Assembly (NCBI RefSeq): GCF_016758255.1
Contig: NZ_QYAD01000004.1
Location: 124,001 to 188,000, forward strand
Direction of reading: 5' to 3'
DNA: 64,000 bases
Source of the DNA: Leucobacter chromiireducens subsp. chromiireducens
Lineage (GTDB): Bacteria > Actinomycetota > Actinomycetes > Actinomycetales > Microbacteriaceae
The position numbers were made by a program, and so were the translations under genes. Within the stretch, counting starts at the first letter, position 1; every line of letters begins with the position of its first letter. The notes beneath the pieces are model-generated. The model ran no database searches, had not been told where the DNA came from, and saw only the letters and a list, made by a program, of their open reading frames with translations. Below, in pieces: positions 6,516 to 28,510 of this stretch.

Positions 6516-7385
6516 ATGAGCACTCCCGAGTCCCCCGCCGCCGCTCCCGCAGCAGCAGCAGCGCCGACGCGCGCCGCACGCACCGCGCGGCCGCAAATCG
6601 TACTCGAGGTGCTCGAACGCGTTCAGCTCTCCCGTCACCTCGTGCGCATCGTCGCCGGCGGTCCAGGGGTCGCGCAGATTGAGCCGAACGGAAAGACGGA
6701 CGCGTACAGCAAGATGCTGTTCACGCAGCCCGATACGCCGCTGAAACCGCCGTACGATCTCGATGCGCTGCGGGAGGAACTGAGCCCGGAGCAGATGCCC
6801 TCGACGCGCACCTACTCGATCCGGCGCTTTGATCTCGACGCCGGAGAGATTTGGATCGACTTCGTGACCCACGGCGAAGCGGGAGTCGCAGGGCCCTGGG
6901 CTGACCGCGCGCAGCCGGGCGACGCTGTCGTTCTCCGTGGCATCGGCGGTGGCTATGCCCCCGACCCCACCGCGGATTGGCACCTCCTGGCGGGCGATGA
7001 GGCCGCCATCCCCGCGATCGCGGCGGCGCTTGAGGCCATGCCGCGCGACGCGGTCGGCACCGCTCTCATCGAGGTGGGCGGCCCGGAGGACGAGCTTTCC
7101 CTCGACGCCCCCACCGGAATCAACGTCACCTGGCTGCATCGCGGTGACGCCGAAGCCGGCACCTCAACAGTGCTTGTCGATGCGGTACGCGCTGCAACGT
7201 GGCTGCCCGGCCGTGTGCAGGTGTTCGTGCACGGCGAGCGGGGGGCGATGAAGGCGCTGCGGCCGTACTTCACCGACGAGCGCGGCCTGGACCGCGCACA
7301 GCTGTCCCTTTCGCCGTACTGGGCCTACGGCCGTCGTGAGGACGCTTTCCAGGCGGAGAAGCGCGAGCCGATCGGCCAGGTCTGA
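6516..7385 (+). CDS. Siderophore-interacting protein (ferric-siderophore reductase, SIP family)
   Basis: A 289-residue flavoprotein of the ViuB/SIP family, which uses NAD(P)H and FAD to release iron from ferric siderophores in the cytoplasm. Visible are the FAD-binding stretch RTYSIRRFD followed by GPWADRAQPGD, a nucleotide-binding half ending in GERGAMKALRPYF, and the family tail YWAYGRREDAF. ATG 6516 is preferred over upstream in-frame starts because the family begins close to VLEVLERVQLSRHLVRI and the extra upstream residues look non-coding. The N-terminus carries an Ala/Pro-rich stretch of about 20 residues. No DtxR/IdeR-type iron box is obvious upstream. Confidence 0.9.
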   Translation: MSTPESPAAAPAAAAAPTRAARTARPQIVLEVLERVQLSRHLVRIVAGGPGVAQIEPNGKTDAYSKMLFTQPDTPLKPPYDLDALREELSPEQMPSTRTYSIRRFDLDAGEIWIDFVTHGEAGVAGPWADRAQPGDAVVLRGIGGGYAPDPTADWHLLAGDEAAIPAIAAALEAMPRDAVGTALIEVGGPEDELSLDAPTGINVTWLHRGDAEAGTSTVLVDAVRAATWLPGRVQVFVHGERGAMKALRPYFTDERGLDRAQLSLSPYWAYGRREDAFQAEKREPIGQV

Positions 7386-7436
7386 ACTTTTCGGGGCGCC
7401 TGGTCTTCTGCGCCGCGTGAGCACCCGCGCTCACGA

Positions 7437-7476
7437 ACGCGTGATGGCCGTTTTCTTCAAGACGGCCATCACGCGT
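7437..7476 (+). terminator. Perfect 15-bp hairpin between the SIP and VOC genes
   Basis: Arms 7437-7451 and 7462-7476 are exact inverse complements (ACGCGTGATGGCCGT), with a 10-nt loop TTTCTTCAAG. It follows the SIP stop by about 50 bp. No U-tract follows, as is usual for high-GC actinobacterial terminators. A shorter hairpin (CGTGAG/CTCACG) precedes it at about 7415-7435. The right arm ends only 17 bp before the next start codon. Confidence 0.75.
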
Positions 7477-7481
7477 GAGCG

Positions 7482-7487
7482 TACGCT
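7482..7487 (+). promoter_or_regulatory. Probable -10 box giving a leaderless VOC mRNA
   Basis: TACGCT fits the TANNNT -10 pattern and ends 6 nt before the ATG at 7494, so transcription should begin at or next to the start codon. No Shine-Dalgarno sequence is visible. No convincing -35 is seen. Confidence 0.45.
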
Positions 7488-7493
7488 TGCCGC

Positions 7494-7895
7494 ATGACAC
7501 TCGCACTGAACTTCATCGGCATCGTCACGAGCGACCTCTCGGCCTCGCTCGCCTTTTATCGCACGCTTGGTCTCGACATTCCCGAGGGGCTCGACGCGGA
7601 ACCCCACGTGGAGGTGACGCTCCCGGGCGGTACCACGCTCGCGTGGGATCCGCTCACTACGATCCACAGCTTCAATCCCGACTTCGTGCTGCCGACTGGC
7701 CCGGGCCGCATCGGCTTCGCGTGCGAGGCGGACTCCCCCGCCGCGGTTGATGCCGCGTACGCCGAGGTCACCGCTCGCTTCCCCGCCGCTGCCGCAACCG
7801 CCCCCTGGGATGCGCCGTGGGGCCAGCGCTACGCCACCGTGCACGACCCCGACGGCAACGCGGTCGATCTCTACGCGCCGCTCCCCGCGGCGTAG
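7494..7895 (+). CDS. VOC (glyoxalase/bleomycin-resistance-like) family protein
   Basis: A 133-residue single VOC module: beta-alpha-beta start LNFIGIVTSDLSASLAFYRTLGL, then DPDGNAVDLYAPL at the C-terminus, the usual edge strand with a metal-ligand-type Asp/Glu region. VOC proteins include dioxygenases, isomerases and antibiotic-binding proteins; the substrate cannot be told from sequence. The 3' end overlaps the convergent AraC-type regulator gene by 25 bp. The nearby AraC-type gene is a possible regulator by position only. Confidence 0.88.
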   Translation: MTLALNFIGIVTSDLSASLAFYRTLGLDIPEGLDAEPHVEVTLPGGTTLAWDPLTTIHSFNPDFVLPTGPGRIGFACEADSPAAVDAAYAEVTARFPAAAATAPWDAPWGQRYATVHDPDGNAVDLYAPLPAA

Positions 7896-8689
7896 CGTGA
7901 GACTCGCCCCGGGGTGGTGCCCGCGATGTCGCGCAGCTCGCGGGTGAGGTGAGCCTGGTCGGCATAGCCCCCACGCGCGGCGACGTCCACGACCGGCACT
8001 CCGCCGCGGAGCAGCTCATGCGCGCGTTCCGCGCGGAGCACCCGTCGCAGGCTCGTGAATCCATAGCCGAAGCCCTCCGTCATCCGCCGTCGAAAGTGGC
8101 GCTCGGACACCCCGAACTCACCCGCCACCGCAGCCGCGGGGGCGCCACTCGCCGCTGCGCTGCGCACCGCGGAGCGCCAGTGCCGCTGCTCCGCGAGCAC
8201 GGGAGCGTAGGCGCGCTGCAACGCGGCCGCTGCAGCCTGAACCGCACGAGCTTGCGCCTCACCGGGCAGGCGGGAGGCCGTGTCGCCCGCCTGACCTGCT
8301 TCTACAACCGCGCCACGGACACGCCGGAGGAGACTCAGCGCGGAGCGCAGCTGGAGCGGGCTGAGCACCGCCGTCCCGGCGAGCTGCGCATCGCGAAGCG
8401 GCGCCGCGGACTGCGAGAGCGCGAGGCCGGCAGCCCCGGGGTCAAAACGCACCCCCACGGTGACCCCGGATCGGGATCCCTGCACGCGGAGAGCGCGTGT
8501 CGACGGGCCGGCGACGAGCAGCGAGTCATCACGGAGGATGAGGTCGGCGCTCCCATCCGCCGCGATGATCCGACCGCCAGCCTCTCCACCAGTCGCCCCA
8601 CCAGCCTCACCATCAGAGAATGACGCTGGATGCTCCGCGTGAGCCCACCAGAGCGTCCCCACTGCGGGGACTCGGAGTTCGTGGTACAC
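7871..8689 (-). CDS. AraC-family transcriptional regulator
   Basis: 272 residues. The C-terminal AraC/XylS DNA-binding domain has two helix-turn-helix units, AAAVAGEFGVSERHFRRRM and VVDVAARGGYADQAHLTRELRDIAGTTPGRV. The N-terminal part (HELRVPAVGTLWW, with VGVRFDPGAAGLAL) resembles the DUF6597-type sensor domain common in actinobacterial AraC proteins. It is convergent with the VOC gene and overlaps it by 25 bp; uvrB ends 16 bp from its start codon side. Its ligand is unknown. Confidence 0.9.
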   Translation of the reverse strand: MYHELRVPAVGTLWWAHAEHPASFSDGEAGGATGGEAGGRIIAADGSADLILRDDSLLVAGPSTRALRVQGSRSGVTVGVRFDPGAAGLALSQSAAPLRDAQLAGTAVLSPLQLRSALSLLRRVRGAVVEAGQAGDTASRLPGEAQARAVQAAAAALQRAYAPVLAEQRHWRSAVRSAAASGAPAAAVAGEFGVSERHFRRRMTEGFGYGFTSLRRVLRAERAHELLRGGVPVVDVAARGGYADQAHLTRELRDIAGTTPGRVSRYAAGSGA

Positions 8690-26186: not shown

Positions 26187-26192
26187 TAGGCT
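26187..26192 (+). promoter_or_regulatory. -10 box for a leaderless leader-peptide transcript
   Basis: TAGGCT is a good actinobacterial -10 and lies 6 nt before the ATG at 26199, so the mRNA should begin with the start codon of the short peptide. The -35 region falls in the preceding terminator stem and is not recognisable. Confidence 0.5.
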
Positions 26193-26198
26193 GCAGCT

Positions 26199-26222
26199 AT
26201 GCGCGTGTTCTTCTTCATCTAA
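26199..26222 (+). CDS. Seven-residue leader peptide MRVFFFI
   Basis: ATG CGC GTG TTC TTC TTC ATC TAA: a very short, Phe-rich open frame about 130 bp ahead of an ABC-F-type gene. Ribosome-protection ABC-F and methylase genes in other bacteria are commonly controlled by such peptides, where drug-stalled ribosomes refold the leader RNA. Here the predicted leaderless start, the run of three Phe codons and downstream complementary segments fit that model. That it is translated and regulatory is inference; the gene it would control is now broken. Confidence 0.45.
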   Translation: MRVFFFI

Positions 26223-26225
26223 GGC

Positions 26226-26348
26226 TGTCCTCTTCCGCATCGGCCCAGCTGAGTTTCGCGGATGAAGTTTTCGACGCCCGAAGCGCTGTCCTGCGCACCC
26301 GTTTCTGCACGGTGCGTTGTGTGGGGACGGCGCGTACCGCAGAAGGAC
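26226..26348 (+). promoter_or_regulatory. Possible attenuator between leader peptide and ABC-F gene
   Basis: CGCACC (26294-26299) pairs with GGTGCG (26311-26316), and GTCC (26288-26291) with GGAC (26325-26328), giving a two-part hairpin. The GTCCT segments at 26226-26230 and 26288-26292 can both pair with AGGAC of the ribosome-binding site at 26344-26348, so alternative structures could hide or expose it. Judged by eye only; no folding was computed. Confidence 0.35.
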
Positions 26349-26352
26349 CACC

Positions 26353-26835
26353 ATGACCCGCAATTCGTCGACCCCTCACGTCAGCACCCGCATCACTGCG
26401 CACAACGTCACGCTGCGCCGTGGTGGACGCACCCTGCTCAGCGATCTCACGCTGACAATCAGCACGAGCAGCCGCCTCGCCATCGTCGGCGAGAACGGTC
26501 GCGGCAAATCTACGCTACGCTGCGGCGCTCGAGGACGCGGTGCGACTCGACGCGTGGGACGCGGAGCGTCGTGTGACGAAGATGCTCGAGGCGCTCGGCG
26601 CGGAGACGGAGTTCGCACGCCCCCTGGCCGAGCTATCGGTGGGCCAGCGGTACCGCGTCCGGCTCGCCTGCGTTCTCGGCGGCGACGCCGAGCTCCTCCT
26701 CCTTGACGAGCCAACGAATCATCTGGATGCGGCGGGAATCGCGGCACTCTCAGCGTCCCTCACCTCGCGACCGGGCGGCTTCGCGCTCGTCAGCTCATGC
26801 GCCACTCCCTCACGCACGGCGGAGCTCGCTGATGT
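26353..26835 (+). pseudogene. Degraded ABC-F family ATPase (ribosome-protection/EttA-like type)
   Basis: From ATG 26353 (AGAAGGA upstream) the frame gives ITAHNVTLRRGGRTLLSDLTL and the Walker [11 protein letters not shown], then loses sense. The other frame immediately resumes ABC-F sequence, [18 protein letters not shown], followed by the signature [21 protein letters not shown] and [20 protein letters not shown]. The stretch between Walker A and the helical region is missing and the frame has shifted; the second ABC half is lost entirely, ending where the next gene starts. The junction lies in a tandem TACGC repeat (26511-26520). No functional protein is expected. Confidence 0.8.
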
Positions 26836-28510
26836 CGGCCGTGATCGTCCACGCAGACAACGCGACGGTGCGCTTCGGCAAGCAGCACGCGCTCACCGAC
26901 TTCACCGGCATGTTTCAGCCAGCGACGATCTCCGCAGTGATCGGCGGGGACGGTGCAGGCAAGTCCACCCTTTTGCGCGCACTCTCCGGGCGGCTGCCAC
27001 TCACGAGTGGTCAGTTCCGTGGCCTCACTTCGCACCGAGCAGACATTGGCGTACAGCCGGCGGACGCCGGTGTGTGGCGCTCGCTGTCGGTTGCCGAAAA
27101 CCTCGAGTTCGTCGCGCACACGTATCGGATCCCCGCCTCCACCGCCCGTGCCCGCGAGGAGATACTGCTTGAGCGCGCCGGCCTGCAACAGGTGCGCGAC
27201 CGGCTTGCGGGCGCCCTTTCCGGCGGCATGCGTCGGAAGCTCGGCGTCCTCCTCGCCACCCTGCACGAGCCGAGCCTGGTGCTGCTCGATGAGCCGACGA
27301 CCGGTGTCGATCCGCTCAGCCGGTCGGAACTCTGGGCGCTCATCGAGCGCGTCGCAGCCGAAGGCGCGACCGTGGTGTTCGCCACAAGCTACCTGGACGA
27401 GGCGGAGCGCGCCTCGCAGCTGCACTTTCTGGCTGACGGCCGGGTACTCGCTGAGGGCACAGCGACCGATGTGAGTGCGCGTGCTCCCGGGGCGCTCTGG
27501 GAGGCCACAGCCCCCTCGTCGCTCCCGCGAGGCGCGGAGCTCGAGAACGATACCTGGCGGCGCGGTCATTCAATCTACCGCTGGACCCGCGAGGCGAGCG
27601 CCCCACCCCCGGCAGGCTTTCAGCGAGCACAACCGGACCTCGAGAACGCGAGCATCGCGCTGCTCCTGAGCGCGGAAGACCGCGCGGCCGCCCGAGGAGA
27701 GGGCGTCGTCGCCGTGCCGCAGCTCATCCCCGCGCCGGTCGTGGAACGCGACGGATCGCTGCTCGTCGAGGTGCGCGGCATCGTGCAGCGGTTCGGCAGC
27801 TTCACCGCGCTCGACGGGGTGTCGCTCTCCGTCGCACCCGGCGAAATCGTCGGCCTGTTGGGCGGCAACGGCGCAGGCAAAACCACCCTCATGCGCGTGT
27901 TGTTGGGGCTCGAGACCCGAGCGCGGGTGAGGTGACCCTCTGTGGCGGCCTGCCCAGCCTCCCGCGCCGCCGACGCCTCGGTTATGTCGCGCAAGGCCTC
28001 GGGATGTACCCCCTCCTCTCTGCGACCGCCAACCTGCAGTTCGTCGCGTCCGTGCAGGGCTGCCCGATCCCAGACCCGCTGGCGACCTGGGCCGCACAAT
28101 GGGGCACCACACCTGTCACCGAGCTGCCACTCGGCACCCGCCGGCTCCTCGGGTGCGCTGCCGCGTCACTGCATGAGCCTGAGCTCCTCGTACTTGACGA
28201 GCCCACCTCCGGTATGGACGCACTCTCGCGCACTCGCCTCTGGAAGGAGCTGCATCACCGCGCTGATCCTGGCACCGGAATCCTCGTCAGCACGCACTAC
28301 ATGCAAGAGGCGGCGCAGTGCGATCGCCTCGTGATCCTCGCCGAAGGTCGAGTCGCGGCGGAACTGACGGATGCACCCGCCAACATTGAGGAAGCCATCC
28401 TGCTCGCGGCTCGAAACAGGCCACCCGGCCAAGCCGCAGGTCACAGCTCGGCCACGGCCCGCTCCCGCCCGTTCCCCGGCAACCACGCGGCTGGCACAAT
28501 GCTGCCATGA
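26832..28510 (+). pseudogene. Tandem-domain ABC transporter ATPase split by a frameshift
   Basis: ATG 26832 opens a drug-efflux-type ABC ATPase. Domain 1 is complete: Walker [12 protein letters not shown], signature LSGGMRRKLGVLLATL, Walker B LVLLDEPTTGVDPLSR. Domain 2 begins FTALDGVSLSVAPGEIVGLLGGNGAGKTTLMRVLLGLE, then the frame ends at TGA 27935. The -1/+2 frame from 27932 continues it: RLGYVAQGLGMYPLLSATANL (Q-loop), a degenerate signature ELPLGTRRLLG, and ELLVLDEPTSGMDALS. One missing base near 27913-27920 explains this. The break reads GTGA, so coupled translation of a split protein is not excluded. No permease gene accompanies it. Confidence 0.75.

Follow-up and report, generated by a model that had tools for sequence, protein, structure and literature searches.

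A seven-codon open reading frame, MRVFFFI, that lies before a broken ABC-F gene in Leucobacter chromiireducens subsp. chromiireducens is quite likely the relic copy of a ribosome-mediated attenuator that senses macrolides. The peptide belongs to a widespread and apparently undescribed family of tiny, probably macrolide-sensing leaders found before ribosome-protection genes of actinomycetes. The evidence comprises the conservation of the leaders, their promoter spacing, RNA pairing with covariation, the fit of leader type to the ABC-F tree, and the broken state of the gene in the window (the 64-kb stretch of DNA that was analysed).

The leader and its predicted promoter

The locus contains the following features.

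26187 to 26192, + strand: -10 hexamer TAGGCT, separated by 6 nt from the ATG of the leader, whose start is predicted to be leaderless
26199 to 26222, + strand: leader mini-ORF MRVFFFI and stop, read from the sequence and related to the leader family; the syntenic leader of genome G007 is MRVYFFI
26208 to 26214, + strand: anti-Shine-Dalgarno TTCTTCT within the leader codons, pairing with 26341-26347 in RNAduplex
26341 to 26347, + strand: Shine-Dalgarno AGAAGGA of the ABC-F remnant, read from the sequence
26353 to 26517, + strand: ABC-F remnant, N-terminal piece to Walker A, 59% identical over 63 columns to residues 1-63 of the G007 ABC-F
26513 to 26794, + strand: ABC-F remnant, signature/Walker B piece in another frame, 77.7% identical to residues 140-233 of the G007 ABC-F
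26797 to 28358, + strand: end of an ABC-2 permease gene and an ABC ATPase gene, adjoining the ABC-F remnant (blastn to 6622-8199 of the G007 locus, L032, 72%)

The mini-ORF is located where the earlier note had placed it, 6 nt downstream of TAGGCT. Its codons (ATG CGC GTG TTC TTC TTC ATC TAA; ATGCGCGTGTTCTTCTTCATCTAA) occupy 26199-26222, and the ABC-F frame starts 130 nt further on, at 26353. A strict motif for the arrangement consists of TAnnnT, 6-7 nt, RTG, one to four codons, three codons for hydrophobic or aromatic residues, and a stop. This motif, which was defined post hoc from the family, occurs once on both strands of the 64-kb window, at 26187. When the 350 nt that precede 26353 are shuffled with dinucleotides preserved, none of 2000 shuffles contains it, again with a definition made after the family had been seen, and it is present in 59/59 distinct upstream regions and in 0/2950 dinucleotide shuffles, the motif being derived from the same sequences. 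A sigma-70 scan yielded no promoter and one terminator-like site, with 1.0 expected by chance. An Rfam search of eight loci (the window locus and seven relatives, 25125 bases) gave one chance hit with an E value of 0.55.

The distance from the -10 box to the start codon is 6 nt (52) or 7 nt (33) in all 85 leaders detected by a rule that allowed 5-8 nt and required TAnnnT. This spacing suggests that transcription starts at the leader itself, and an RNA that starts at the ATG would be too short at its 5' end to contain a Shine-Dalgarno sequence for the leader. Leaderless attenuators that respond to cysteine exist in mycobacteria.

The broken ABC-F gene

The earlier note spoke of an ABC-F gene behind the leader; ABC-F sequence is indeed present there, but as a broken remnant with two large deletions. 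NF000355 is the best hit for both the N-terminal piece (41 bits) and the signature/Walker B piece (64 bits). About 0.23 kb has been lost inside the first ABC domain, since matches that lie 216 nt apart in the G007 locus have a 19-nt overlap in the window. The second loss, of about 3.1 kb by comparison with the same locus and with Pfam, removed the remainder of the ABC-F gene together with a TetR-family gene and almost the whole ABC-2 permease gene, so that everything past the Walker B region of the first domain is gone. Because the ABC-F gene is a remnant with these two deletions, the switch in the window is a relic. We take the leader to stand before a product of natural decay, with an assembly fault as a possible alternative. 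The same genome has an intact ABC-F relative elsewhere, with the leader MHLYFL (L033/L125). In the adjoining ABC ATPase gene, where Pfam ABC_tran matches lie within 26832-27932, the frame is split near 27932 (27900-27940), which suggests that the remnant operon has decayed further.

Conservation of short leaders

In the syntenic G007 locus, MRVYFFI is found in the same place before an ABC-F of 555 residues. Other leaders of the genus are MRLYFFI, MRMYFFI, MHFYFFI, MHLYFFV, MQWYFFI, MHKHYFFL, MHLYFL, MHLIFL, MHHHFFL and further variants. When 54 genomes of the genus were searched with a profile, 25/25 ABC-F genes scoring at least 820 bits, from 23 genomes, have such a leader, a count that includes one leader accepted by eye (MQQLTYL, L162). 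All 14 ABC-F genes of at least 584 bits in 299 genomes of the family have one as well. These numbers of genes are lower bounds, covering the best 26 candidates per genome for the genus, the best four for the family and order, and the best three for the class. The earlier note had held that lack of conservation before the ABC-F genes of relatives would speak against its proposal; the peptide is kept in relatives, and the idea of a drug-sensing type of leader on a predicted leaderless transcript before ABC-F genes is thereby supported. Because 23 compared ABC-F proteins share 50-100% identity, the leader has outlasted much protein divergence.

Pattern searches agree with these counts. A degenerate MHLYFL pattern is found in 6/398 genomes of the family, each time before such an ABC-F gene (the sixth is the leader of G013), and the reversed pattern has one hit. 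A window-type pattern is found in 6/54 genomes of the genus, always at known leaders including that of the window, and its reversed control has none.

Among 58 distinct short leaders, the penultimate residue is F in 51 and Y in 7, encoded by TTC in 48, TAC in 7 and TTT in 3. The last residue is L in 45 and one of L, I, V or M in 54. The constant feature of the leaders is thus an aromatic penultimate residue, with one of these four residues after it in 54/58.

Predicted pairing between leader and downstream RNA

Two kinds of helix involve the end of the leader. Sorting by eye placed 21 of the 64 short leaders in a Shine-Dalgarno-pairing set and 28 in a stop-helix set used for masking; L128, L130, L132, L134, L152, L153, L155, L156, L166, L175, L179, L203, L249, L250 and L251 are outside both sets, and several of these are near copies. 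Alignment A2 of the long-UTR type (n=30) consists of the 28 stop-helix members, L156 and L250.

In this alignment, a segment made up of the stop codon and the four bases after it is paired in 94.3% of cells with GCCGUCA, which lies about 75 nt downstream. The second base of the stop changes from G to A with C to U on the opposite side in 10/30 sequences (UGA or UAA with UCA or UUA), and two mismatches occur at this position, one of them an A-C in the MHLYFL copy of the window's own genome. Outside A2, L179 has UAAGGGC and GCCCUUA at the same place. RNAalifold recovers the stop helix unaided. Three helices taken jointly are paired in 90.6% of cells, compared with 30-49.1% in slid controls; they include 21 double-change cells (shuffled mean 6.8) and have a covariation score of 0.152 versus 0.107, in shuffles that retain relatedness. 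Two of the five covariation measures are weak, namely double-change pairs (6, reached by 14/500 shuffles) and further pair types (16, reached by 189/500). A search for the best helix in each sequence, which was mostly no better than shuffles (only 14/58 and 6/21 sequences at 5/100 or below), has been superseded by the covariation and swap tests. Because the U-tract downstream of the stop helix is short, the helix is not clearly a terminator. Masking the leader raises the predicted accessibility of the Shine-Dalgarno sequence from 0.28 to 0.55, with a rise in 25/28 sequences; masks of equal size placed elsewhere give 0.30, and the leader mask exceeds every control mask in 19/28.

In the second arrangement, the 3' codons of the leader pair directly with the Shine-Dalgarno sequence of the ABC-F gene. 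Across the 21 sequences of this set, duplex energies are -15.0 kcal/mol for native pairs, -12.3 for swapped pairs and -9.0 for shuffled leaders. None of 20000 permutations is as low as the native pairs, in a set that was preselected for apparent Shine-Dalgarno pairing and in which relatives share both sides. For the seven leaders nearest to that of the window the difference is small (-12.0 native versus -11.1 swapped). Masking the leader increases accessibility from 0.09 to 0.42, upward in 20/21, versus 0.11 for equal-size masks elsewhere, and exceeds every control in 17/20. The syntenic G007 locus has no such rise (0.17 to 0.16). Pairing between an upstream ORF and a Shine-Dalgarno sequence as an off-switch is an established idea in the available text of PMC13236596.

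Covariation of the stop helix, the swap test and masking thus indicate that, in the family, the leader end overlaps a potentially controlling helix; the duplex of the window is weak, the weakest of the 21 at -6.8 kcal/mol. The earlier note had proposed that segments after the leader can pair either with each other or with the ribosome-binding site. The minimum-energy fold contains pairing of the leader with the AGAAGGA region, but the fold of the leader region as a whole is no better than that of shuffles (z -0.25; 76/200 shuffles are equally stable). The unpaired probability of GAAGGA in the window is 0.02 when the leader is free and 0.57 when it is masked, and one of nine control masks gives 0.59.

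A second leader type and the ABC-F tree

The wider survey covered 297 genomes of the order, 394 of the class, and plasmid records, of which 20 matched and eight were read. Leaders of the family occur across the class. For the order, the upstream DNA was read for 50 of the 54 listed matches, the four lowest-scoring ones (at most 427 bits) being left out. By rule, the 118 upstream regions, including the window, divide into 64 with the short YF type of leader, 21 with a longer MRLR-like type defined by an (R/K)x(R/K) motif, and 33 with neither. Five were then assigned by eye, L162 to the short type and L181, L188, L242 and L248 to the second type, and 28 with neither remain. MKLW, MRPW or MKPW replaces MRLR in L181, L242 and L248. 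The MRLR-like leaders, such as MYSGIASMRLRTGR, MRHTGIASMRLRTRR and MLTASMRLRFRA (L244), are also predicted to be leaderless and are found in a sister ABC-F clade.

A quick maximum-likelihood tree was built from 116 ABC-F proteins, three of them from a second subfamily and without the short L222, with SH-aLRT as the only measure of support. Leader type requires four changes on this tree, against a mean of 48.1 for shuffled labels and with 0/200 shuffles as low, subject to long branches and to near copies that cluster the labels. Support is 99 for the single branch that makes up the RLR clade and 93 for the YF clade, which includes L229. Leader type is thus old and has been passed on together with the gene.

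The 28 regions in which no leader was detected comprise L229 and 27 members of one related ABC-F clade (L192-L202, L204-L216 and L219-L221). In L197, L199 and L202 of this clade, the ABC-F start itself lies close downstream of a TAnnnT box. The leader of L188 (genome G587) is frame-broken by one lost base relative to L185/L186 while its ABC-F gene is open, which might represent a naturally constitutive or dead switch.

Relation to known systems

Attenuated ABC-F genes, macrolide arrest leaders, and actinomycete lmrC/ARE5 attenuators with other leaders are already known, as the available texts of the sources cited here describe. The nearest parallel is MsrDL (MYLIFM), the leader of msr(D), likewise a hydrophobic peptide of six to seven residues before an ABC-F gene, with an RNA helix that overlaps the leader end. 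In the available text of PMC10314930, erythromycin or azithromycin arrests MsrDL with its last codon in the P site. Induction is lost when L3 or I4 is replaced by Ala, Y2A is tolerated, and the first half of a terminator lies under the stalled ribosome. MHLIFL (L015/L160) departs from MYLIFM at two places only, residue 6 and the Ala-tolerant residue 2, and both MHLIFL and MHLYFL match MsrDL in length, L3 and F5. The MRVFFFI of the window is one residue longer and is a loose match. MsrDL, as described in that text, has its own ribosome-binding site and lies downstream of mefA, whereas the ATG of the leaders reported here is at the predicted 5' end of the RNA; the hosts here are actinomycetes, and their ABC-F proteins belong to another subfamily.

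The leaders of the sister clade, e.g., MLTASMRLRFRA, resemble a different group of peptides by an MRLR or similar motif. According to the available text of PMC4335068, macrolides need Mef(E)L (MTASMRLR) in order to induce mef(E)/mel, the sequences of Msr(A)L and Erm(K)L are MTASMRLK and MTHAMRLRFPTLNQ, and the stall at erm(K) is assigned to MRLR. Unlike these, the sister-clade leaders are actinomycete and predicted to be leaderless, and they are not of the window type. Among actinomycetes, lmrC, are5sc and tiaA of Streptomyces are likewise attenuated ABC-F genes; as far as the available texts of PMC8546547 and PMC12421871 go, they differ in belonging to the ARE5 subfamily, in having other leaders (start-stalled in are5sc and tiaA), and in responding to LSAP drugs.

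Three intact ABC-F proteins score 279, 315 and 293 bits with NF000171 (TlrC/CarA/OleB/SrmB), below its cut-off of 800, and 277, 311 and 284 bits with NF000355 (ribosomal protection-like ABC-F), below its cut-off of 380, so that NF000171 is the best model by 2-9 bits. Macrolide resistance is thus ascribed to these proteins by kinship.

A literature search with six peptides found only MYLIFM, and searches on leaderless attenuators, Microbacteriaceae ABC-F proteins and tlrC found no recognisable report of this leaderless family; most subscription journals, and supplements, lay outside the scope of these searches.

Proposed mechanism and alternatives

We infer from the sequences a course of events that includes where transcription starts, that the leader is translated, which drug acts, where the ribosome stalls and in which direction expression is controlled. 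The transcript would start at the leader ATG, and ribosomes would load at the 5' end of the RNA. When the drug is absent, the leader would be translated and the ribosome would leave quickly. In the window type, the 3' codons of the leader could then pair with the Shine-Dalgarno sequence of the ABC-F gene, and in the MHLYFL type the region of the stop codon could pair about 75 nt downstream; in either case, the ABC-F gene would be off. When a macrolide is bound, a short peptide ending in Y/F-F-L/I might arrest at or near the stop codon, as MsrDL does. The stalled ribosome would cover the leader, the helix could not form, and the ABC-F ribosome-protection protein would be made. A macrolide is suggested as the inducer because sister clades of one ABC-F subfamily carry MsrDL-like and MRLR motifs, and because, among curated models, that of the TlrC/CarA/OleB/SrmB proteins of macrolide producers scores best, with a margin of a few bits and a score below its cut-off.

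Perhaps the attenuator is the same but responds to one or several other drugs of the 50S subunit (lincosamide, streptogramin, phenicol, pleuromutilin), with a stall that is not at the stop codon. The leaders of actinomycete ARE5 genes offer a precedent, because, in the available text of PMC12421871, LSAP drugs but not erythromycin stall ribosomes at their start codon. However, the ARE5 leaders (MLV, MVGDDDISG) do not evidently resemble the ones described here, start-codon stalling would not require conserved C-terminal residues, and the sister clade has the macrolide motif MRLR, so we consider this reading rather unlikely.

It is much less probable that only the RNA signals (promoter and helices) are conserved, with the peptide a by-product of the anti-Shine-Dalgarno and stop-helix pairing. 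TTC and CTC do complement GAA and GAG of the Shine-Dalgarno sequence, and the penultimate codon is nearly fixed. Yet the best helices of most MHLYFL-type leaders are stop helices, not helices with the Phe codons, and the residues are nonetheless kept; moreover, the aromatic codon TAC substitutes for TTC in place, and the other leader type has a known arrest motif in the same position.

That the leader senses a shortage of Phe-tRNA or another aromatic aminoacyl-tRNA through its TTC run, as classical amino acid attenuators do, is scarcely credible: the window has three consecutive TTC codons, which the earlier note had suggested would be an unusual stalling signal or Phe-tRNA sensor, and at least one Phe is present in 51/58 distinct leaders, but the conserved codon run of such an attenuator is lacking, since seven leaders (MHLPLYL three times, MNLPLYL, MIQSVLYL, MCQSQLYL and MHLYYL) are free of Phe, the syntenic MRVYFFI has TAC in place of the first TTC, the gene to be controlled encodes an ABC-F protein and does not function in Phe synthesis, and the sister clade uses leaders of the MRLR type.

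Plasmid copies and wider significance

MHLYFL is found before plasmid ABC-F genes of Glutamicibacter protophormiae, Microbacterium paraoxydans, Janibacter melonis and a Gordonia sp., in each case with a gene for an MFS transporter directly behind the ABC-F gene. On plasmid pLMV7 of Micrococcus sp. V7, the leader MYRGIASMKLRSAR stands before the same ABC-F and MFS gene pair. In pRErm46 of Prescottella equi, an ABC-F gene at a distance of about 1.2 kb from erm(46) is preceded by MYASTGFMKPWSLR. The MFS gene right behind ABC-F in five of the eight plasmid copies is reminiscent of msr(D) in streptococcal mef/msr elements. Because plasmid copies lie close to erm(46) (one of eight records) or directly before an MFS gene (five of eight), the switch seems to travel with resistance genes.

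On balance, we lean towards the view that these leaders form an old family of macrolide arrest peptides that are leaderless and spread throughout the actinomycetes, with 33 different short sequences that have an aromatic and mostly a Leu or Ile residue before the stop, and whose own stop or Phe codons form the off-switch helix. If this is true, termination arrest works on ribosomes that initiated without a 5' leader, and two arrest motifs (MxLxFx-stop and MRLR) are common to the ABC-F genes of firmicutes and actinomycetes. The macrolide arrest leaders in the cited literature belong to a small number of firmicute and streptococcal genes. A large natural library of leaders of six to eight residues with conserved C-terminal chemistry would allow the rules of stop-codon arrest on actinomycete ribosomes to be read from evolution, and it would account for a possible induction of macrolide tolerance in these bacteria.

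Leaders of more distant ABC-F genes

A separate scan of contigs produced 80 loci, mostly with distant ABC-F genes, for 20 of which the upstream DNA was read; L037 is without upstream DNA. In one of the loci, L046 of Actinomadura oligospora, a predicted leaderless MGSLIFL that resembles MsrDL lies 158 nt before position 2530, upstream of a more distant ABC-F gene (38% identity).

The other 68 matches listed for the family genomes (at most 414 bits) represent a second ABC-F subfamily with other leaders, and 16 of these (L135-L150) were read. Eleven of the 16 have a tripeptide, MKL, MKI, MKN, MKS, MEL or MIL, that starts 6-8 nt past a -10 box. The MK[LINS] tripeptides resemble the short upstream ORFs of CplR, VmlR and VmlR2 (MR[I/M], MIN, MK[L/Q]), which are not of the window type; the available text of PMC10201436 describes these together with one for LsaA and records that none was found for Ard1. 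In the remaining five, ATGAAGTGA is found about 10 nt after TATGGT, TATCGT or TAATCT.
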